From Bradyrhizobium jicamae (GTDB lineage: Bacteria > Pseudomonadota > Alphaproteobacteria > Rhizobiales > Xanthobacteraceae): a DNA stretch of 64,000 bases. The stretch lies in the NCBI RefSeq assembly GCF_018130215.1, contig NZ_JAFCKQ010000018.1, positions 62,001-126,000 of the forward strand, read 5' to 3'. Position 1 is the first letter of the stretch; every line of letters starts with the position of its first letter. Below the pieces are notes generated by a model. The model saw nothing but the letters and a program-made list of their open reading frames with translations. It was not told the origin of the DNA and did not search any database. Below are positions 5,650 to 19,744 of this stretch, one piece after another. A program made the translations under genes and the position numbers.

Positions 5650-5963
5650 GGGAAGCCTCCTTTGCGCGCTATTATAATGTTATTGGCGCGCGACATTGGG
5701 CGGAGACATTTGCAGTAAGACAACGGCGCAACGATCCTTGCGCCATACGCATTCTCCCAATCCTTTCTTCGCGACTCTGCACATAAGTGTTCCAGATGGC
5801 CGCGCAGGCAAAGTTATAGGAATCTTATAAAGATTCTCTCCCTCAGTGGATGCGGCGAAGAGCCGGTTTAGGATCATTCGCGCTAGTTGTCGGATGACCA
5901 TTTACACACAGCTTGGGCATGATTAGTGTTTTGCCCGGGAAGCCTGCAGGCGGAGGGGCGTCG

Positions 5964-7886
5964 ATGAGCTTAGCCGCGGGGACCGGTGCGACCAGGCATG
6001 CGAAAGCACGACCTCGATTGGCGGCATCAGCGATCGCCTGCATGGGCGTTGTGTTCGGGGATATCGGCACCAGTCCACTCTACACATTGAATGTTGCGGT
6101 CAAATCGGCAAGCCCAGACGGGCATGTCATGCCGGAAGCGGTCATTGGCATCGTCTCGTTGATCTTCTGGTCCCTCATCATCGTCATTTCCATCAAGTAC
6201 GCGATCCTCATCATGCGCGCAGACAACCACGGCGAGGGCGGCATTCTGGCGTTGCTAGCCTTGGCCAGTCCGCAACGCGCCAAATCCGACAAATGGCGAG
6301 CCGCGTTTATCGTCGTCGGCCTTATCGGCGCAACGCTGCTTTACGGCGACGGGACGATTACGCCCGCGATCTCCGTCTTGAGCGCGATCGAGGGCCTGAA
6401 GATCTATGCGCCGCAACTAAATCACGTCGTCGTGCCGCTGACCGTGCTTATCCTCAGTGGCCTATTCATTATTCAGCGCAAGGGCACATCCTGGATCGGC
6501 GGCTTCTTCGGACCCATCATGCTGGTCTGGTTTATCATTTGCGGAGTGCTTGGCATCGAAGGGATCCTTGCGAATCCCGGCATATTGGCCGCACTGAGTC
6601 CGCTGCCCGCGATCACCTATCTCTCGCATGCGGGCAGCCTGGCTTTCGTCGTTATCGGCGGCGCATTTCTCGCCGTGACGGGCGGCGAAGCGTTTTATGC
6701 CGACATGGGCCATTTCGGACCGCTGCCAATTCGCGTGGCCTGGTTTGCCGTCGCGCTGCCGACACTGACGCTCAACTATTTCGGGCAGGGCGCTCTGCTG
6801 TTGCTCGATCCTACTTCTCCTCAGGTTATCGACAGCCCGTTTTACGCTTTGGCGCCAAGCTGGGCGCTCTACCCTCTCATCATCCTTGCAACGGTTGCGA
6901 CCGTGATCGCCTCGCAATCGATCATCTCCGGCGCTTATTCCATGACGCAGCAGGCGATCAGCCTCGGGTTTCTCCCGCGCATGAAAGTCGTGCATACCGA
7001 AGGTCGGGAGATCGGCCAGGTCTACTTGCCATTCGTCAATTGGGCGCTTGCCGCTGGAACGCTCGTCGCCACGATTGGTTTCGGATCGTCGGACGCGCTG
7101 GCCGGAGCTTTCGGCATCGCCGTGTCACTCCTTATGGTGATCACGACGCTGATGGCGACGGTCGTCGCGCTGCATTGGAGGTTTCCTCCTTATATCGTCT
7201 ACACCGTGAACATAGCGCTGCTCGCGCTTGACACGCTGTTCTTTGCCTCGACCGCGTCCAAGCTGCTCGACGGCGGCTGGTATCCCTTGCTCATCGCCGT
7301 CGTTATTTCGTTCCTGATGCTGACCTGGAGAAAGGGTGAGCAGATCATGGATGTCGTGCGGCTCGAGATCCGCGAGCAGATCGATACGTTCCTCGAGAAT
7401 CTGCGCAAGAACCCGCCGGTCCGGGTGCCGGGAACGGCGGTTGTGCTCGGGCGTTTGTCGAAGGGCATTCCACTGGCGCTTTCGCATAGCGTAAAATGCA
7501 GCCACGTGCTGCAGGAGAACCTGGTTCTGGTCGCCGTCTCGACGACGGAAGTCCCTCGTACACCGGACGAGGGGCGGGTCGTGGTTCAGCCCATCGCCGA
7601 AGGCATCACGCGCGTCGAACTGCGGTTCGGGTTCATGGAAGAGCCCAACGTACCGCGAGAACTCGACGCGGCGATGAAGCGCGGTGTGCTCGCGCCGTTC
7701 GATCTCAGCGCGGCGGTCTATTACACCGGTCACGAGACCATCGTTCCGACCGGCTTGCGCGCCGGCCTGCCGCGCTGGCGCGAAACGATATTCGCATTCA
7801 TGCACCACAACGCGCAGCGCCCTGGCGCCTATTTCAAGATCCCGGGCAGGCAGGTCATGGAGGTAGGGGTCGAATTCGACATATGA
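5964..7886 (+). CDS. kup: Low-affinity potassium transporter Kup
   Basis: This is a K+/H+ symporter of the KUP/HAK/KT family. Signatures include the first-helix motif GVVFGDIGTSPLYT, the YGDGTITPAISVLSA segment, the GGEAFYADMGHFG loop and the QAISLGFLPRMKVVHT region, followed by a hydrophilic C-terminal domain of about 150 residues. About twelve transmembrane segments are expected. I prefer ATG 5964 because GGAGGGG lies 6 bases upstream, giving 640 residues; TTG 5913 or ATG 5919 would add about 15. Upstream lie the NhaD-type gene and the broken small peptide; downstream are the KdpE-like regulator and porins. Confidence 0.93.
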   Translation: MSLAAGTGATRHAKARPRLAASAIACMGVVFGDIGTSPLYTLNVAVKSASPDGHVMPEAVIGIVSLIFWSLIIVISIKYAILIMRADNHGEGGILALLALASPQRAKSDKWRAAFIVVGLIGATLLYGDGTITPAISVLSAIEGLKIYAPQLNHVVVPLTVLILSGLFIIQRKGTSWIGGFFGPIMLVWFIICGVLGIEGILANPGILAALSPLPAITYLSHAGSLAFVVIGGAFLAVTGGEAFYADMGHFGPLPIRVAWFAVALPTLTLNYFGQGALLLLDPTSPQVIDSPFYALAPSWALYPLIILATVATVIASQSIISGAYSMTQQAISLGFLPRMKVVHTEGREIGQVYLPFVNWALAAGTLVATIGFGSSDALAGAFGIAVSLLMVITTLMATVVALHWRFPPYIVYTVNIALLALDTLFFASTASKLLDGGWYPLLIAVVISFLMLTWRKGEQIMDVVRLEIREQIDTFLENLRKNPPVRVPGTAVVLGRLSKGIPLALSHSVKCSHVLQENLVLVAVSTTEVPRTPDEGRVVVQPIAEGITRVELRFGFMEEPNVPRELDAAMKRGVLAPFDLSAAVYYTGHETIVPTGLRAGLPRWRETIFAFMHHNAQRPGAYFKIPGRQVMEVGVEFDI

Positions 7887-8772: not shown

Positions 8773-9111
8773 CACTTGGAGTAAAACACGACGCCTTGTT
8801 CAAGGGCGGCGCGCATGAATCCTAGCACCGTCGCATCCCAACGCGACTCTCGAATATCATGCAGGCGGCGATTACGCTGTGAGCGTTATGCTTGATTGTT
8901 GCGCGGACGGCGTCGTCGACATGTCGGGACAATGACGGCGAACTTATCTTTTCGCGGTCGAAACCGGGGGAAATCGGGCGCATCGACAAGACCGACAGCA
9001 GTCCCATCGGCACAAATCCAGGCAGAGCAGGTAATTTCGCGACGAGAATATATTATTCCGCAACCCTTCATCGGCAGCGCCCATCGCAAGCCCTCAGCCG
9101 GCAAATCGACG

Positions 9112-9825
9112 TCATTCGCCGGGGCTGGTCTCGATACGGGAGTGCAGGCGATAACCGACACCTGACTCGGTGACCAGAAGCCGGGGATTGTTCGGGTCCG
9201 CCTCTATCTTCTGACGGAGCTTGCGCACCAGGGTTCGCAGATACTGGATATTGTCGCGCTGGTTTCCACTCCAGATATCTGCCAGCAGCTGGTCGTGCGT
9301 CACGACCAGCCCGAGATGCGTCGCCAGGATCTGGAGCAGGCGATACTCCTTTCGCGTCAACCGCATCTGGCGCTTGTCGAGGAACACGGTTCGGCTGACG
9401 AGATCGATCGACAGCGGTCCGGCCGAGATCACGGCGGTCCTGGTCGCGCTCCTCAGATAACGGCGCAGGGCGGCTTCGGCGCGCGCCAGCAGCTCCGCCA
9501 TGCCGAACGGCTTCACCACATAATCATCGGCGCCGGCCCGCAGCAGCCGGACCTTTTCGTCCTCGGTCGACGTCACGGACAGGACGATGACGGGAACGTT
9601 AGACCAGGAGCGCAGCCGCTCCAGAACCTCGGCTCCGGGCATGTCAGGCAGCGCCAGATCGAGAATGACGAGGTCGGGCGCGTTGAACGTCGCGGCCTTC
9701 AATCCGTCAACGGCGTTTTCGGCCTCTCGCACTGAAAAGCCGTGAATCTCGAAGCCGGCCCGGAGGAACCGCCTGATCTTCAACTCGTCCTCAATCAGCA
9801 GGACGGCACGGCTGGGTGTGTTCAT
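9112..9825 (-). CDS. kdpE: KdpE-like response regulator (OmpR family), orphan copy
   Basis: The 237-residue protein has a receiver domain with the acidic pair E12/D13, phosphoacceptor D56 (LVILDLALPD) and K105 (DDYVVKPFGM), then an OmpR-type winged helix ending VRKLRQKIEAD and ESGVGYRL. Close similarity to KdpE suggests control of potassium-transport genes. No kinase gene adjoins it. The paralogue at 16454-17167 has exactly the same length and shares long identical stretches such as RRFLRAGFEIHGFSV, so the KdpD-like kinase there may serve both. I chose ATG 9825; an in-frame extension to 9933 looks non-coding. A divergent porin gene starts at 10342. Confidence 0.85.
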   Translation of the reverse strand: MNTPSRAVLLIEDELKIRRFLRAGFEIHGFSVREAENAVDGLKAATFNAPDLVILDLALPDMPGAEVLERLRSWSNVPVIVLSVTSTEDEKVRLLRAGADDYVVKPFGMAELLARAEAALRRYLRSATRTAVISAGPLSIDLVSRTVFLDKRQMRLTRKEYRLLQILATHLGLVVTHDQLLADIWSGNQRDNIQYLRTLVRKLRQKIEADPNNPRLLVTESGVGYRLHSRIETSPGE

Positions 9826-10341
9826 CAATTCTCGGCCGTCAGCGCCTTCGCAACAGAGCTGACATCTTGGAGAGCGTGCTTCGCGCCGGACGAGCCCGGC
9901 GGGACGCGCGTCGCGATGAACAGGTGTGTTCAATGCATAAGCATAGCGATGGGCGGCATATATCTTCGATGTGCAACGTCAGCGCTCTGCATAAAAAAAA
10001 TGTAGTGGCGCGCCCGCGCGATGCGCGTTGACCTGATTTCGACGGCTGTAAGCTTCGCGTCATGTAGCGCAAAAGACACATCACGACACAAACAACTGCG
10101 GTTTGTCAGCGAGTTTCGCGCAAATGTCGTGTTTCTCGCTGCGCGTTTGAGCAGATCGAGATGCGATTGATGCTTCTGCGTGCAGACAGCGCAGGACGGC
10201 TCATTTGCGCTATTATTTTTCTACGGAAACGCGCGGCAAGCTGTATCGCTTTTTCCCTGCCTCACAACGAAAAATCGTTTCGAAGGTCAACGCTGCATCG
10301 CGAAAGCGCGTGCATCACTGATCGCAATGTGGGGCAGTAAT
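9826..10341. promoter_or_regulatory. Divergent control region between kdpE-like and porin genes
   Basis: This 516-bp gap separates the orphan regulator (minus) from the porin (plus). It contains an inverted pair CACGACA (10082-10088) and TGTCGTG (10126-10132) around a small CAAAC/GTTTG hairpin, with AT-rich stretches near 10200. These could be regulator-binding sites, but I cannot assign a consensus. Confidence 0.35.
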
Positions 10342-11973
10342 ATGAAAAGACTTCTTCTGGCAGGCGTCTCGTTGACCGCGTTCGGTCTGAGCAGCGTTGC
10401 GCAGGCGGCCGATCAATCGAAGGGGCCGTGCCCGTATGGTGGCGATCCCTACAAGAATTACAGCTGCCTCGACCCTTATCTCGGCACCGACTTCTTCAGC
10501 CGCTTCATCAACTACTACCGGCTCGAATGGGGACACGACGCCGCGCCCGCGGATCCCAAGGCGCCGCCTTCACGCCGGCCCGAGTCGGAAGTGCCGCCGG
10601 CGCCGGCCTCCACGCCGCCATATCCGTTCACCGAATGGCCCTATGGCGGCACCACCAGCCTTGGCGTGACGCGGACGAGCTCGGTCGACAGCCCGCTGAT
10701 GACGGCGCTGTCGAACACGGCGGTCGGCCAGTGGCTGAACGATGCGCACATCCAGGTCTACGGCTGGGTCGATCCGGGCGGTAACCTCTCGACCAACACG
10801 GTACGCGGCGGCAACGCGCCGGCGGCCTACAGCTACAATCCTAACACCGTGCAGCTCGACCAGGCGGTGATCTACATCGAGCGCCTGCCCGACACGGTGC
10901 AGCGCGATCATGTCGACTGGGGCTTCCGCCTCGCGCCGATCTACGGCGAGAACTACCGCTACACGACGGCCTACGGGCTGTGGAGCTATCAGCTCCTGAA
11001 CCAGAACAAGAACAACGGCTACGACATGCCGATGGCCTATGGCGAGGTGTTCATCCCGCAGGTGATGGACGGCCTGATGGTCCGGTTCGGCCGGTTTATC
11101 TCGATTCCCGACATCGAGGCCCAGCTGGCGCCGAACAACTACATGTACTCGCACTCGATGACGTACACCTTCGACAACTACACCAACACCGGCATCCAGG
11201 CTTCGCTCGCGGTCAACAAGAACTGGATCCTGCAAGCGGGCCTGGTGAGCGGTACCGAGGCCATGCCGTGGCATGTCGGCGCCACGATCCCTAATCCGAT
11301 GCCGAACGCGCTCTATCCGGGAACCACAATGCCGAAGGATCCGGGCGCGGTCCCGAGCGTCACGCTCGGCGTGCGCTGGACCAGCGACAGCGGCAACGAC
11401 GACGTCAACATCGTCGCCGACGGCATCAACGGCGGGCAGTGGGGCTACAACAACCTGCAATGGTACGGCTTCACCTATTATCACAAGTTCAACGATCAGT
11501 GGCACATCTCGATCGAGTCCTATAACGAGCATCAGAACAACGTTCCGAACCTGCTCAACCCGACGACGCAGGCGATCATCGCGGGCGGCGGCACCCCGTT
11601 CTCGCCACAATACATGCCGTTCAACGCGCCAGGCGGGGCGATCTGCAAGAGCGCGACCCCGCTGTCGTGCACCGCGAGTTGGCAGACGGCGCTGATGTAC
11701 CTGAACTACAAGGCTTCGCCGCTCGACAACATCTCGTATCGTCTGGAATGGGTCGACGACTACGAGGGACAGCGCACGGGTACGAAGACCGCCTATCTCG
11801 AGACGGGCATCGGCTGGCAGCACTGGTTCTCGCCACAGATCGAGATCCGGCCTGAAGTCTCCTACTACAAGTCGCTGAACGCGTTTGCCTTCAACGGCAA
11901 TGCCAACCTCGGCATCGCGCCGACCAGGAATTACGCGATCATCGGTTCGGCGGACATCATCATTCACTTCTGA
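10342..11973 (+). CDS. Outer membrane beta-barrel protein (BBP2-like porin)
   Basis: The 543-residue product begins with a clear signal peptide (MKRLLLAGVSLTAFGLSSVA, cleavage after AQA), then a proline-rich segment (about residues 75-100). The rest is a long beta-rich domain with features of the BBP2 family: IQVYGWVDPGGNLSTN, VRFGRFISIPDIEAQ, YMYSHSMTYTFDNYTNTG and the terminal NYAIIGSADIIIHF. ATG 10342 is chosen because the signal peptide starts there, although the frame is open 54 codons further upstream. It probably forms an outer-membrane channel; its place in the Kup/Kdp block suggests a link to ion supply, which is inference. Confidence 0.8.
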   Translation: MKRLLLAGVSLTAFGLSSVAQAADQSKGPCPYGGDPYKNYSCLDPYLGTDFFSRFINYYRLEWGHDAAPADPKAPPSRRPESEVPPAPASTPPYPFTEWPYGGTTSLGVTRTSSVDSPLMTALSNTAVGQWLNDAHIQVYGWVDPGGNLSTNTVRGGNAPAAYSYNPNTVQLDQAVIYIERLPDTVQRDHVDWGFRLAPIYGENYRYTTAYGLWSYQLLNQNKNNGYDMPMAYGEVFIPQVMDGLMVRFGRFISIPDIEAQLAPNNYMYSHSMTYTFDNYTNTGIQASLAVNKNWILQAGLVSGTEAMPWHVGATIPNPMPNALYPGTTMPKDPGAVPSVTLGVRWTSDSGNDDVNIVADGINGGQWGYNNLQWYGFTYYHKFNDQWHISIESYNEHQNNVPNLLNPTTQAIIAGGGTPFSPQYMPFNAPGGAICKSATPLSCTASWQTALMYLNYKASPLDNISYRLEWVDDYEGQRTGTKTAYLETGIGWQHWFSPQIEIRPEVSYYKSLNAFAFNGNANLGIAPTRNYAIIGSADIIIHF

Positions 11974-12042: not shown

Positions 12043-12783
12043 ATGAAGCGATTTCTTTTCACCTCGGTCTCGCTCGTGGCACTTGGGCTGATGTCACCGG
12101 CGCTCGCCGCGGATCTCCCGATGTACACCAAGGCGCCGGCCGTCTCGCCAACCTACGACTGGTCCGGCTTCTATGCCGGCGTGTATGGTGGCGGCGGCTT
12201 CGGCAACCACAATCTCAACAACGCGCTCGGCCCCGCGGGCTTTGCCAACTTCACGATCAACTATGACTCGACCGGCGCCGTCGCCGGCGGCGAACTCGGC
12301 TACCAGGTGCAGAGCGGTGTGATTGTCGGCGGCGTCGAGGTCGGCGGCTTCTGGTCCGACATCAATGGCAGCGATCTCTCCCAGTTCAACGCCGGCACGC
12401 TGCCGATCGCGTCGGTCGATCAGACCAAGCTTAAGAGCGGAGCGACGCTGCTGGCGCGCGGCGGCATCGCCGTCGACCGCCTGCTGCTGTTCTTCACCGG
12501 CGGCGGGGTCTACGGCCAGCTGCAGCATACCAACACCGACCCGGTGTTCGGCGTCGACCAGTTCAACGCGAACCGGAGCGGCCTCGCGGCCGGCGGCGGC
12601 ATCGCCTATGCGATCACCAACAACCTGATCGGCAAGTTCGAATATCGCTACTACGACTTCGGCACCTATCACCGTGACGCGCCGACCAACGGTCAGATTC
12701 CCTACAGCGTGGCCAATACCTATTCGGTCGTGACCGTCGGCCTCGACTACAAGTTCGGCGGGCCGGTCGTCGCCAAGTACTGA
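12043..12783 (+). CDS. Omp25-like outer membrane beta-barrel protein
   Basis: The 246-residue protein has a signal peptide (MKRFLFTSVSLVALGLMSPA, cleaved after ALA) and a mature start ADLPMYTKAPAVSPTYDWSG. An eight-stranded barrel pattern follows: GFYAGVYGGGGFG near the start, GGELGYQVQSGVIVGGVEVG, and the C-terminal GLDYKFGGPVVAKY. This matches small rhizobial porins of the Omp25/RopB type. AGGGGTT precedes ATG 12043. It is probably co-transcribed with the porin upstream and the small genes downstream. Confidence 0.85.
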   Translation: MKRFLFTSVSLVALGLMSPALAADLPMYTKAPAVSPTYDWSGFYAGVYGGGGFGNHNLNNALGPAGFANFTINYDSTGAVAGGELGYQVQSGVIVGGVEVGGFWSDINGSDLSQFNAGTLPIASVDQTKLKSGATLLARGGIAVDRLLLFFTGGGVYGQLQHTNTDPVFGVDQFNANRSGLAAGGGIAYAITNNLIGKFEYRYYDFGTYHRDAPTNGQIPYSVANTYSVVTVGLDYKFGGPVVAKY

Positions 12784-12796
12784 CGCGGAGTGGGCG

Positions 12797-12973
12797 GTGA
12801 ACGGTTCGGCACTCAGCCAGAAAATGCGGATCGTGATCGCGGTCGTGGTGTTCAGTGCGAGCAGCGCCGGATGCGCGGTCAATCTCGGCAGCACGACGAG
12901 TGAGAAGGCCGAGGGCAATACGCAGATGAGGTACTACGGAGGCCCGAAGTCTCCGATGTGGCAAGGTCAATAG
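12797..12973 (+). CDS. Small lipoprotein-like protein with C-terminal RYYGGPKSPMW motif
   Basis: A GTG start at 12797 (with GGAG 8 bases upstream) gives 58 residues; ATG 12824 within it gives MRIVIAVVVFSASSAGC, a lipoprotein-type leader with Cys at the likely modification site. The mature peptide is short and ends MRYYGGPKSPMWQGQ. The same RYYGGPKSPMW string ends the protein of the next gene. It begins 13 bases after the Omp25-like stop codon, suggesting the same transcript. Function unknown. Confidence 0.6.
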   Translation: MNGSALSQKMRIVIAVVVFSASSAGCAVNLGSTTSEKAEGNTQMRYYGGPKSPMWQGQ

Positions 12974-13000
12974 CTCTGACCGGCATTTGACAGGAGGCTG

Positions 13001-13255
13001 ATGATGACCGGCATTTTTGCCAGACGTGCACGATTGGGGTTTGCGGTTCTGTGTGGCGCGTTGCTGACGACCGTGGTCAGTGGCGAAGCATTCGCCAGGC
13101 ACCACGGCGGGCACCTGCATGCCCGACTCCATACTCGCCACGCGTTCGCCAGTAGCCATGCGGAGCTGGCTTCGCGGCAGCCGTCCCAGCCAGGGACGCT
13201 GCGCTACTACGGCGGACCGAAATCACCGATGTGGCGCGCACCGGTCGAGAACTAG
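13001..13255 (+). CDS. Small secreted histidine-rich protein with RYYGGPKSPMW motif
   Basis: A strong AGGAGG site (12992-12997) serves ATG 13001 or, better spaced, ATG 13004. The 83-84 residue product has a signal peptide (LGFAVLCGALLTTVVSGEAFA), a histidine-rich segment (RHHGGHLHARLHTRHAF) that could bind metal, and the C-terminal LRYYGGPKSPMWRAPVEN shared with the preceding gene. It is expected in the periplasm or envelope. Family and function are not known to me. Confidence 0.65.
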   Translation: MMTGIFARRARLGFAVLCGALLTTVVSGEAFARHHGGHLHARLHTRHAFASSHAELASRQPSQPGTLRYYGGPKSPMWRAPVEN

Positions 13256-13324: not shown

Positions 13325-13573
13325 ATGATCGGATGCAGAAAGGCGACCAGGACGCTGGCAGCTGCGGCGACGATCATGTCGTTGCTGATCGCGCCGGTGC
13401 ATGCCCAGATCGGTCAAAATGGCGGGGCTTACCGCGGCCCGCCCGTCGTAGAGCGTCCGAAGATCGACGAAAAAGCCTACAAGGCTGCGCTTGATCGGAT
13501 TCCTGATCCGAACAAGAAATACGATCCGTGGGGCGTCGCCCGCCCGACGGAGTCTGCCAAGGGCGCGAAGTAA
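13325..13573 (+). CDS. Small secreted protein, conserved hypothetical
   Basis: GAGGAG lies about 8 bases before ATG 13325. The 82-residue product has a signal peptide (LAAAATIMSLLIAPVHA) and a short mature chain, QIGQNGGAYRGPPVVERPK, ending in YKAALDRIPDPNKKYDPWG. The last part is a conserved pattern in small rhizobial envelope proteins as I recall them. It is third in a row of small secreted genes after the porins. Function unknown. Confidence 0.65.
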   Translation: MIGCRKATRTLAAAATIMSLLIAPVHAQIGQNGGAYRGPPVVERPKIDEKAYKAALDRIPDPNKKYDPWGVARPTESAKGAK

Positions 13574-13876
13574 GATCCTGCTAACCGAGGCGATGCTGAC
13601 CGCATGGACGCGGTGTCAAAGCGCGTGTGGCGGTGCGAGAGAGCCGCTTTCATTACGTGGACCTGACAAGGTGCTGCTGGTTTCGCCGCGTAGCTATCCT
13701 GCTGATCTTTCAGGCAAAGCGTGACTGTTTCTTGCTCTTCTACGCAATCAGTATCAACATGGCAGCGCAAGGGACGACACGACGCCGAACAGAGCGATCG
13801 ACAGGAAACATCCAATCGACACGGCCTGTCCCCTCTGGGCTCGGTTTGAGTTGTCTCGAACCGAATGGAGGCTGTC

Positions 13877-14104
13877 ATGTCTAGATTCGTTGTTATCGTC
13901 GCTGGAACGCTCGCGGCTGTCGCGCTCCTGGCAAGCCAACCGGTCCAGGCTGGCGCGTCGGCCAGCGCGCCTTCAAAATATTCCGCCAGCCACCAGGTCA
14001 CGAGCACGCACTCCACCCGGACGGCACGTGGCTCCAACGTCGGAATCACGGAATATTCGTCGTCGTCGGCGAGGAATTCATCGCAGACGCGTGGTAACCA
14101 TTAG
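13877..14104 (+). CDS. Small secreted Ser/Thr-rich protein
   Basis: GGAGG lies 5 bases upstream of ATG 13877. The 75-residue product has a signal peptide (MSRFVVIVAGTLAAVALLAS, cleaved after VQA) and a low-complexity mature part rich in Ser, Thr and Ala. Its last 59 bases overlap the 3' end of the convergent DUF2927 gene. Function unknown. Confidence 0.5.
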   Translation: MSRFVVIVAGTLAAVALLASQPVQAGASASAPSKYSASHQVTSTHSTRTARGSNVGITEYSSSSARNSSQTRGNH

Positions 14105-16453: not shown

Positions 16454-17167
16454 CTAGTCGACCACGCTCGGCTCCAGCCGGTTCTCGAGCCGGTAGCCGA
16501 CCCCCGATTCGGTGATCAACAGGCGCGGCTGATTGGGGTCGGTCTCGATCTTCTGGCGCAGCTTGCGCACCAGGATGCGCAAATACTGGATGTTGTCGCG
16601 CTGGTTGCCGGTCCAGATGTCCTTCAGCAGCTGATCGTGCGTCACCACCAGCCCGACATGCATCGCCAGGATGTGGAGCAGGCGATACTCTTTCCGCGTC
16701 AGCTTGATCCTGCTGTTGTTGAGCGAGACGGTTCGGCTCGCGAGGTCGACGGCGAGCGGCCCGACCGTGACAACCGGATTCTCCGTGGCGCTCTTGAAAT
16801 AGCGGCGCAAGGCGGCGTCGCTGCGGGCCAGCAGCTCCGCCATGCCGAACGGCTTCACCACATAATCGTCGGCACCCGATTGGAGCAGGCGGACCTTCTC
16901 GTCCTCGTCGGACTCGACGGAGAGCACGATGACCGGAACGTTGGACCACGAGCGCAGCCTCTCGAGCGCCTCGCTGCCATGCAGGTCCGGCAGCCCGAGA
17001 TCGAGAATGACGAGGTCAGGCGAATTGAAGGTCGCGACCTTCAGCCCCTCGGCGGCATTCTCCGCCTCGACGACAGAGAAACCGTGAATCTCGAAGCCCG
17101 CGCGCAAGAAGCGCCGGATCTTCGGTTCATCGTCGATTAGGAGGACGAGGTTGCTCGGCTTAGTCAT
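16454..17167 (-). CDS. kdpE: KdpE-like response regulator paired with a KdpD-like kinase
   Basis: The 237-residue OmpR-family regulator has phosphoacceptor D56 (LVILDLGLPD), K105 (DDYVVKPFGM) and a C-terminal winged helix (LTRKEYRLLHILA, then YLRILVRKLRQKIETD). ATG 17167 overlaps the end of the upstream kinase gene by 8 bases, the usual arrangement for a co-translated two-component pair. It is a paralogue of the orphan regulator at 9112-9825, identical in length and in most of its helices. Predicted targets are K+ uptake or osmotic genes; no kdpFABC is present in the window. Confidence 0.87.
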   Translation of the reverse strand: MTKPSNLVLLIDDEPKIRRFLRAGFEIHGFSVVEAENAAEGLKVATFNSPDLVILDLGLPDLHGSEALERLRSWSNVPVIVLSVESDEDEKVRLLQSGADDYVVKPFGMAELLARSDAALRRYFKSATENPVVTVGPLAVDLASRTVSLNNSRIKLTRKEYRLLHILAMHVGLVVTHDQLLKDIWTGNQRDNIQYLRILVRKLRQKIETDPNQPRLLITESGVGYRLENRLEPSVVD

Positions 17168-18701
17168 CATCAATAGTGGCCAGATCCGAAGTTTGAAGTG
17201 CGGGAAGCAGGACCGAGGCCGTGGTGCCGAGACCCTTCCCGCGGCTCGTGATCTCGATGCTGCCGCTATGGGCCCTGACGAAGGTGGATGCGATCCAGAA
17301 GCCGAGCCCCGAGCCGGGGATGCTGGCCTGATGGCGCTGACTGCGGAACGATTTGCGGCCGATATGGCGCTGATCGTCCGGCGTGATGCCGACACCCTGG
17401 TCGACGATCGAGATGACGACGCGCCCGCGATCGTGCCGGGTCCGAACTGCGATCGTCGAGCCGGACGGGGAATATTTGGCGGCGTTTTCCAAGAGCTGGC
17501 CGCAGGCTTCCTCGATCAGGCCAGAATCGACATTGAGCAGCGGCAGATCGTCACCGAACGCGTTCTCGACGCGATGCGCGGCAAGCCTGCGGGCGCGGCC
17601 CTTCACCGCGGCGTTGACGATGTCGCGCGGATCCGACCATTCAAGACGCGGCGTCAGCCCGCCGGCGGTCACCCGCGTGGCGTTCAGGAGGTTGCGGATA
17701 TGGCCGTCGAGATGGGTGACCTCGTCCGAGATCGCTTCCGTCAGCGAGCGGAGCCGCTCGTCGTCGCGCACCGCCGGCATGGTGTCGATAACGCTGACCG
17801 ATCCCTGGATCGCCGCCAGGGGTGAACACAATTCATGCGACAGAGTGCCATGGAATGCATCGCGCAGCAGCTCGGCCTGCAGATGCAGCCTGGCGTCGTC
17901 CATCGCCTTGCCGATATCGAGCCGCTGCAAGGTCAGCGACACCTCTTCGAGGATCCCCTCGATCCGGCGGGTCCGGCTCTTGATCGTGTCGCGCGAACCG
18001 TGACCGACATTGATGGCGATGACGCCGTGGACCACCGTCTCCGAGCTGATCGCGCGCAGCAGCCAGATGTCCTGCGACGGAGTGTTGACCACGCTCCGGC
18101 CGGTTGCTCCGACACGCGCCATCATTTCCGCGACCGCCTCCAGCACGGCCGGAGGGGTGGGCGCCGATTCCGGCATCGATTCGAAATTGCCGTGGGTGGA
18201 AGCAACGAACAGTGCCGCGCGCGGTCCGAGCGTGTGGGCCAGATAATACCTGATGGCATCGATCAGGTCCGAGACCGTGAAGCATGCGGCGAGCCGCTTG
18301 GAGAATTCATAGAGATGCTGGATATCCCGCTCGCGCTGGTGCGACCGTTCGGTCTCGCGACGCAGGCGCGAAGCGAGATTGCTGGTCGCCAGCGCCACGA
18401 CGAGGAACAGCAGGAGGTCGACGGCCTCCTGCGGGTTGTCGACCCGAAAGCTGTAGATCGGCTCGAAGAAGAAGAAGTCGGAGGTGGCTATGGCGGTCAG
18501 CGACGCGAGCGTGCTCGCCCATATGCCCCATCGTGCGGCCGCGAAGATGATCGGGATCAGATAGGCGATCGGGATCAGGCTCGCCGCGACCATCGAGTCG
18601 AGCACGAGCAGCACCGCCGTGACCAGGCCGATCGACCCAGCCGACAGCGCGAGCGGCAGCACGTCGATCCGCATGGTGAACGACGAGGGGTCGTCGGCCA
18701 T
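17160..18701 (-). CDS. KdpD-like sensor histidine kinase lacking the N-terminal KdpD/Usp domains
   Basis: From ATG 18701 the protein has 513 residues: four closely packed transmembrane helices (about residues 12-110, DUF4118-type), a GAF-like region (about 130-250), a dimerisation/phosphoacceptor helix with H289 (FHGTLSHELCSPLAAIQG), and an ATPase domain with N-box LENAAKYSPSG, DQGVGITPDD and GSGLGFWIAS. Canonical KdpD has about 900 residues with an N-terminal sensor and Usp domain, both missing here. Upstream in-frame sequence to 18926 does not supply them. It should phosphorylate the overlapping KdpE-like regulator; its stimulus may differ from classical KdpD. Confidence 0.82.
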   Translation of the reverse strand: MADDPSSFTMRIDVLPLALSAGSIGLVTAVLLVLDSMVAASLIPIAYLIPIIFAAARWGIWASTLASLTAIATSDFFFFEPIYSFRVDNPQEAVDLLLFLVVALATSNLASRLRRETERSHQRERDIQHLYEFSKRLAACFTVSDLIDAIRYYLAHTLGPRAALFVASTHGNFESMPESAPTPPAVLEAVAEMMARVGATGRSVVNTPSQDIWLLRAISSETVVHGVIAINVGHGSRDTIKSRTRRIEGILEEVSLTLQRLDIGKAMDDARLHLQAELLRDAFHGTLSHELCSPLAAIQGSVSVIDTMPAVRDDERLRSLTEAISDEVTHLDGHIRNLLNATRVTAGGLTPRLEWSDPRDIVNAAVKGRARRLAAHRVENAFGDDLPLLNVDSGLIEEACGQLLENAAKYSPSGSTIAVRTRHDRGRVVISIVDQGVGITPDDQRHIGRKSFRSQRHQASIPGSGLGFWIASTFVRAHSGSIEITSRGKGLGTTASVLLPALQTSDLATIDDD

Positions 18702-19141
18702 TAACGTGACGCGGGGCTTCCTTTCGGCCCGACGCGCGCGTGCATCCGCGAGCCGTTGAAACAGGGGCAGAGAATAGTTCAAGAATACGGCCTTCGTAGC
18801 GAAAGACACCGGAAGATCCCTGCAGCGGCTCGTCAAGCCTGCAAGAATCCGCCCCCGGCAATATCCGACGTGAGCGCTGAAGACGAAGCCAAGTGCCGCT
18901 GACCGGCACGAACCTTCGCAACCCATTCAACTCCGACGGTCGGCTATTGTCTCAATGTCGCAAACTACCCAGCGCGCTAAGCATTCCCCAGATTCGAGTA
19001 GAAAATCTATGCTGTTGGCGCAGGCAGGAAATATAAAAGTAATAGCCGTGGAGCTCGAGATTGGTCAGCGATCGGCAACGCTGGGTTGGCACGCGCCAGA
19101 CACGCTCAACCCTTCGTCCAGCACGGTGGTTTGCGGCGGGA
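18702..19141. other. Intergenic, upstream of the kinase gene
   Basis: This presumably holds the promoter of the kinase-regulator pair. I see no clear motif, terminator or additional gene in it. Confidence 0.35.
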
Positions 19142-19744
19142 TCAGCGCCGATGCGGCCGGGCCATCGCGTCATCCGACTGGAGCAGGATACCGTTGACAT
19201 AGCTCAGCGCCAGCCGTTCGCCGGCGAGTTCCGGCTTCGTCCGATACCAGTCGGGTTCGACCGCTGGATTGGTCCGGGGTGGCGTCAGTTTCGAGATGGC
19301 CGCCGAACTGATGTATTTGGGCGGATAGAGATAGAAGTCCATCAGCGGGGTCGGCGAGGCGCCGGCCTGTCGCTTCAGGACCGTGAGTGCTTTGGCGCCG
19401 GCCTCCGGATAGAGCGCACTCCAGCCGGCGAAATTGCTGGTCAGGATCTCCAGCGACAGGATCGCGGTCGCGATCTCGACAAAGCCCTGGTTGGATTTCT
19501 TCGCGCTGCGGGTCGTCGAGGCCTTTCTCAGCCGCTGGCGGAACTCATGATGCCGTTCAATGAACGGCCCAAGGCGGGCGCGCCACAGCATGTCGGGCAG
19601 GCACGCATAGCCATGTACGTCATGATAGCTCTCGATCAGGTTGCGGCACTGGCCGACCAGATCGGCCGGCAGGAATTTGAGATCGAGATCGTCGGTCCCG
19701 ACCTTGGGAGCGACATCGCTTGCGCTGTTCAGAACGTCTGCCAC
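19142..19744 (-). CDS. Hypothetical protein
   Basis: I do not recognise this protein. It is largely soluble and helical, with segments such as LPADLVGQCRNLIESYHDVH, FIERHHEFRQRLRKAST and LDFYLYPPKYISSA-like text near the end. I suggest GTG 19744 because GGAGGAG lies upstream; an ATG at 19879 would add 45 residues of doubtful coding quality. It stands alone between the Kdp-like pair and a phage-type gene. Confidence 0.5.
   Translation of the reverse strand: MADVLNSASDVAPKVGTDDLDLKFLPADLVGQCRNLIESYHDVHGYACLPDMLWRARLGPFIERHHEFRQRLRKASTTRSAKKSNQGFVEIATAILSLEILTSNFAGWSALYPEAGAKALTVLKRQAGASPTPLMDFYLYPPKYISSAAISKLTPPRTNPAVEPDWYRTKPELAGERLALSYVNGILLQSDDAMARPHRR

Follow-up and report, generated by a model that had tools for sequence, protein, structure and literature searches.

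The closest described systems are small exported proteins encoded with metal transporters. CusF is a small exported protein of metal RND operons (PMC10100754), cep is a conserved exported protein within nieIC-cep-nieBA of Cupriavidus (PMC7060636), and PmcY of Pseudomonas aeruginosa, a membrane-located periplasmic metallochaperone encoded in a Zn-transporter operon, affects how the porin OprD is expressed (PMC13231896). In Rhizobium etli, kdpA-kdpE have an uncharacterised OMP gene nearby (PMC6011978). Here, in a 64,000-nucleotide stretch of Bradyrhizobium jicamae DNA (the window), we describe a real, narrowly distributed and apparently undescribed pair of exported accessory proteins, A and B, with the shared conserved tail RYYGGPKSPMW. 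The tail may serve as a docking motif, a reading that we favour tentatively.

The original prediction that a lipoprotein-like gene and an adjacent gene for a histidine-rich exported protein are unrelated except for an identical 11-residue motif was borne out: the two open reading frames lie side by side (Table 1), and BLASTP aligned A and B over 13 residues only (E 5e-9). A duplication of the whole gene is ruled out by an alignment of just these 13 residues, and the two genes are not the full-length tandem duplicates that had been named as the contrary outcome. Chance is likewise ruled out as the origin of the shared 11-mer, which is the longest common substring of A and B, since 20,000 double shuffles of the two proteins gave a maximum of 8, reached once. 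The motif had been placed at or near the C-terminus; "near" is the accurate term, with three residues following it in A and six in B.

Table 1. Features of the A/B locus and its surroundings in the window (positions count from the first letter of the window).
Feature	Coordinates	Strand	Basis and remarks
Second KdpE-like response regulator, left of BBP2	9112..9933	-	likewise placed in the nearest relative, L036
BBP2 porin (PF07642)	10180..11973, start more likely 10342	+	Pfam
OMP, OMP_b-brl family	12043..12783	+	Pfam PF13505; ends 13 bases before A
Gene A, lipoprotein-like, 58 aa	12797..12973	+	ORF; lipobox SSAGC; motif near C-terminus; profile matches at the corresponding position in relatives
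Motif copy 1, RYYGGPKSPMW, in A	12929..12961	+	sequence reading
Gene B, exported His-rich protein, 84 aa	13001..13255 (start may be 13004)	+	ORF; A-x-A signal-peptidase-like site; motif near C-terminus
Motif copy 2, RYYGGPKSPMW, in B	13202..13234	+	sequence reading
Gene C, small exported-type protein	13325..13573	+	ORF; in several relatives, 3' of the pump operon
Gene D, small exported-type protein	13865..14104	+	ORF; kept near the locus in several relatives
KdpE-like response regulator	16454..17395	-	below KdpE cut-off
KdpD-like sensor kinase (DUF4118, HisKA, HATPase)	17160..18926	-	below KdpD cut-off
Helical protein without family	19142..19744	-	no family, no fold match; divergent to BBP2 in relatives

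Both genes have good ribosome-binding sites, with GGAG six bases upstream of the GTG start of A and AGGAGG upstream of the ATG of B (13001 or 13004). The N-terminus of A is hydrophobic and runs into a lipobox that ends in Cys, as expected of a bacterial lipoprotein, and B would carry a signal peptide ending in A-F-A, followed by the His-rich stretch and the motif. Gly25 and Cys26 of A are invariant in 17 homologs, the lipobox being judged by eye; the residue before the Cys is A or N in L097 and L110. Export of both proteins and lipidation of A are likewise predicted by eye, and the intact bearers of the motif look exported by the same reading, in line with the expectation that they would carry signal peptides. 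Outer-membrane placement of A would follow from the +2 rule, which is unproven in this bacterial group. Neither protein matched Pfam at E 1 or better or NCBIfam above cut-off (sub-cut-off matches to other families only), so that membership of a CusF-like chaperone family was not found for either; a plasmid search matched neither, and a related-locus search with B alone returned no relative, though relatives exist. The His content of B differs among homologs and is low in L048 and L080. Its profile also matched the His-rich N-termini of proteins that we take to be RlpA-like; this was attributed to composition after three loci were read, and a relation of B to these proteins was rejected. In the AlphaFold2 model, the last third of B, motif end included, is a low-confidence coil, which fits a linear motif and proves nothing.

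The two 33-nucleotide copies of the motif in the window differ at six bases, all of them silent, so that selection acts on the peptide. The relatives extend this pattern: 21 distinct pairs of within-locus copies showed 84 silent differences versus 17 in residue-changing codons (naive binomial p 4e-41, of which only the direction is trustworthy because the pairs share ancestry). In all, 53 distinct copies bear out the motif. At position 8, 42 copies have S, nine have Y, one has N and one has A; Y3, P9 and M10 differ in two, one and two copies, and the other positions are constant, an invariance partly built in by the collecting expression, which required Y2, GGPK and W11. A freer scan of 43 loci (at least six of 11 positions matching) recovered the same copies and added only degenerate ones, namely RYYGEAKSLIW, a decayed form in L039/L107, and ALHGGPKSPMW in L105, where B is frameshifted; the other six-of-11 matches lie elsewhere and look like chance, shuffled motifs having given 3-17 matches in ten trials. 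Changing carriers, drifting linkers and a constant peptide are most likely the signature of a short linear binding motif.

The carriers themselves are fluid. Of the 24 loci read (L029-L049, L052, L080 and the window), 13 carry both genes, eight A only and three B only. Elsewhere the two genes can overlap: in L092, L093 and L097 the stop codon of A and the start codon of B share bases. In L034, L041, L044 and L100, a single hybrid gene joins the lipobox head of A to the RAPAEN tail of B; over the 36 bases past its stop, 28-32 match those after B of L045 and 11-14 those after A. This hybrid is the product of a deletion by recombination between the motif copies, with the motif kept. The RAPAEN tail also stands on the Y-variant of A in L047, L103 and L110, and B holds two motifs 132 bases apart in L036 and L043. 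Since recombination across the motif did happen, and the copy in L039/L107 has decayed, the identity of the two tails might simply reflect shared ancestry and gene conversion between adjacent repeats, the tail having little function; the excess of silent over residue-changing differences is not expected from conversion alone, and we hold this account to be very improbable. One identical near-C-terminal peptide behind different leaders, repeated in tandem in some B proteins, would also suit a site recognised by a processing or modifying enzyme, A and B then being precursors from which one common peptide is matured or secreted. However, no candidate modifying enzyme was recognised in the partly annotated neighbourhoods, and the lipobox of A would hold it on the membrane, which leaves the precursor account improbable.

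The motif is narrowly distributed. A codon pattern for YYGGPKSPMW found only the sites in A and B in the 8.55 Mb source genome and, across the genus, 28 sites in 18 of 195 genomes (1-3 per genome); a reversed-pattern control found none. An A profile matched 24 of 190 genus genomes, or 22 after omission of G020 and G109, whose matches were confined to the signal-peptide region. Among 397 genomes of the order, a relaxed motif pattern matched the source genome alone, and with a B profile the 198 genomes of the family yielded one motif bearer outside the genus (G669). The shorter string [ML]RYYGGPK occurred in 21 stretches of genome contigs, of which 20 were confirmed relatives of A; the motif was thus not seen in many unrelated cytoplasmic proteins, an outcome that had been named as contrary to the original prediction. 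Of the 20 confirmed stretches, 19 have Bradyrhizobium in their titles and the last has 'Streptomyces sp. AcH 505'. The latter scaffold (L099, NZ_JTIY01000027.1) carries the whole locus at 48-65% identity and is probably alphaproteobacterial contamination of that Streptomyces assembly.

The motif and the BBP2 and OMP genes of the locus are present in an identical set of 23 of the 190 genus genomes at ortholog cut-offs of our own choice (E<=1e-120 for BBP2, E<=1e-60 for OMP). This set includes G189, whose variant RYHGGPKSPMW was missed by the profile and found by reading the locus. The helical protein, for which neither a family nor a fold match was obtained, occurs in these 23 genomes and in G098, 24 of 190 in total; in G098 it is a lone 55% homolog, with no other locus query in the 11 kb examined and no BBP2 or OMP at the cut-offs.

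In relatives the usual order is KdpE-like regulator, KdpD-like kinase and helical protein, divergent from BBP2, OMP, A and B. B. erythrophlei GAS478 (L094), which is culturable, has the locus in full. The regulators or the helical protein are displaced from this order in the window and in G172 (L036, L082), BBP2 and OMP lie some 14 kb off in L048 (L083), L052 is without OMP, and G669, of another genus, retains BBP2 and A with no OMP at the locus. A locus from a metagenome-assembled genome (L104) is without the regulators, the helical protein, BBP2 and OMP; at 9015-9115 it holds a 5'-eroded A with its motif intact, behind an RND-TolC-like operon. The later start of BBP2 is preferred because conserved sequence precedes the later ATG in relatives. 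The stretch upstream of BBP2 holds conserved blocks in the window (9940-10340) as in relatives, among them those around TTGAGCA and TTTTATCTTAATGAAA; these are possible regulator sites, and the genes of the locus may be co-regulated. The window has two KdpE-like regulators, which gives the impression of a split or duplicated regulator pair.

The bearers of the motif had been expected beside porin or Kdp genes. The porin half of this expectation stands, given the shared set of 23 genomes, and the Kdp half does not: the KdpD-like kinase scored 211.8 against an NCBIfam cut-off of 1123 and the KdpE-like regulator 231.5 against 325, and the sole KdpA found lies on C1, a different contig from the locus. 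A potassium function of the locus is therefore unsupported, the locus having just Kdp-like regulators. A Kup-type K+ transporter gene (K_trans) is located upstream in the window at 5913-7886, and a comparison with 17 relative loci found it in none of them.

The original prediction had proposed that the shared tail is a binding tag, a sorting signal or a site of interaction with porins. The exported look of the bearers and the tie to porin genes, seen in the 23 genomes that share motif, BBP2 and OMP, fit a binding tag. The sorting signal, which would send its bearers to an envelope site or out of the cell, fares less well. C-terminal sorting tags such as PEP-CTERM and LPXTG have a hydrophobic segment and basic residues after the motif. 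Similar to these, the A/B motif is a short conserved peptide near the C-terminus of exported proteins; in contrast to them, it has neither hydrophobic segment nor basic tail after it, the motif being followed by 2-6 residues only in 51 of the 53 copies, and each genome has it at a single locus, on no more than two kinds of protein. A also already has a lipobox. Because no hydrophobic stretch follows the motif and A carries that lipobox, a membrane-anchoring signal in particular appears unlikely, and we regard a sorting role of any kind as rather unlikely.

Our preferred, still tentative, reading is that RYYGGPKSPMW is a short linear docking motif by which A and B bind a common partner, most likely the BBP2 barrel. 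A and B would then be small exported accessory proteins of a BBP2 and OMP channel module that stands beside a KdpDE-like two-component system and is often linked to a CusA/CzcA-family efflux pump. A, lipid-anchored to the membrane, would display the motif on a flexible leash of about 18 residues, and B would present it as part of a soluble, His-rich and probably metal-binding peptide. The two could bind one common partner, most likely the BBP2 barrel on the side that faces the periplasm; B and tethered A would then meet or compete at the channel. Ranked by constancy as a companion, the candidate partner would be BBP2, then OMP, then the pump; BBP2 comes first because G669 keeps it together with A without OMP at the locus.

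In support of docking, the peptide stays while its carriers differ outside it, the recombinant hybrids retain it, and B sometimes doubles it. Motif, BBP2 and OMP also share their 23 of 190 genomes, a pump is frequently linked, and the A and B genes can overlap. Against docking, co-occurrence does not single out BBP2 over OMP or the regulators, and one block of genes inherited together would give it as well; the motif of L104 is intact, and the 18 kb examined there contain no BBP2; and A or B alone suffices in 11 of the 24 loci. The loci with no pump found nearby and the inconstant His content of B also count against it.

A periplasmic adaptor and an RND pump lie directly downstream in 13 of the 24 loci, and a pump is linked elsewhere in four more: in L047/L084 and L049/L085 it lies on the far side of the regulators, in G130 at a distance of about 10 kb, and in G172 (L082) next to the regulators on a separate contig. 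No pump was found nearby in the other seven, window included, and its role therefore cannot be essential. Six of the seven genomes concerned have a far-away pump 84% identical to that of L033; the best pump of the source genome is 52% identical to it. The pump linkage of the motif pair is looser than its link to the porin module. With 844.6 bits against a cut-off of 701.45, the L033 pump passes TIGR00914, and the adaptor and TolC-family models were also passed; the neighbouring system in relatives is a CusA/CzcA-family RND efflux system with adaptor and outer-membrane channel. The best solved relatives of the L033 pump are ZneA and CusA. Compared with the L033 pump, the pumps at the loci form two classes, at 84-96% and 48-49% identity, with TMH IV reading DFGLIVDATVIMVEA and DFGIIVDSAVIMMEN. 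Both differ from DFGX3DGAX3VEN, given as the HME1/HME2 signature in PMC3637150, and no metal was therefore assigned to the pumps.

This linkage bears on another account, in which the motif is itself a metal site, its Trp, the neighbouring Met and other side chains holding a soft metal for the pump, and A and B are CusF-like periplasmic metal chaperones or buffers. The pump is of the fitting family, B is often His-rich, and B is present in 12 of the 13 loci with a pump directly downstream versus four of the 11 without (Fisher p 0.008, kinship ignored). However, the Met is replaced by I or L in two of the 53 copies, A has the motif but no His stretch and is retained in loci without a pump found nearby, and the aligned pump lacks Met at what we take to be the positions of the CusA Met ligands. 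We consider a metal site unlikely, if less so than a sorting signal. The docking reading itself can be carried further, to a motif that acts as an outer-membrane channel ligand: A and a metal-sensing B would compete for one BBP2 site, and periplasmic metal load would gate permeability in step with efflux. This extension is doubtful, and we know of no peptide-gated porin of such a kind.

To our knowledge, linear docking motifs common to unrelated periplasmic proteins are rarely recognised in bacteria, since their periplasmic carriers are tiny and without family models. Here, the motif is defined to the residue and the shortlist of partners comprises two barrels. The docking reading would give a handle on BBP2 proteins, in Pfam only putative porins, and would bear on a possible coupling between metal efflux and outer-membrane channels in some Bradyrhizobium. 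The motif strings had no match in the open-licence PMC literature, which is weak evidence of absence, no title on the locus was found, and the literature examined describes no protein pair sharing a tail.

Compared with the known systems, A and B resemble CusF in being small and exported and, in relatives, in lying beside a CusA/CzcA-family pump with a two-component system nearby (PMC10100754). They differ from CusF-type proteins in having no family match, in being two unlike proteins with one tail, and in having a closer tie to porin genes than to the pump. Like A and B, cep is an exported protein of unknown role inside a metal RND operon, although no shared tail is described for it in the text consulted and the likeness is one of description alone (PMC7060636). 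Similar to the A/B locus, PmcY connects metal handling with a two-component sensor and with a porin; unlike in the locus, its transporter is YiiP, a cation diffusion facilitator and not an RND pump, and its porin link is one of expression, the two again being likened by description alone (PMC13231896). Against this background, the accessory peptides are new, their setting is of a known kind, and the tag that they share is unusual.
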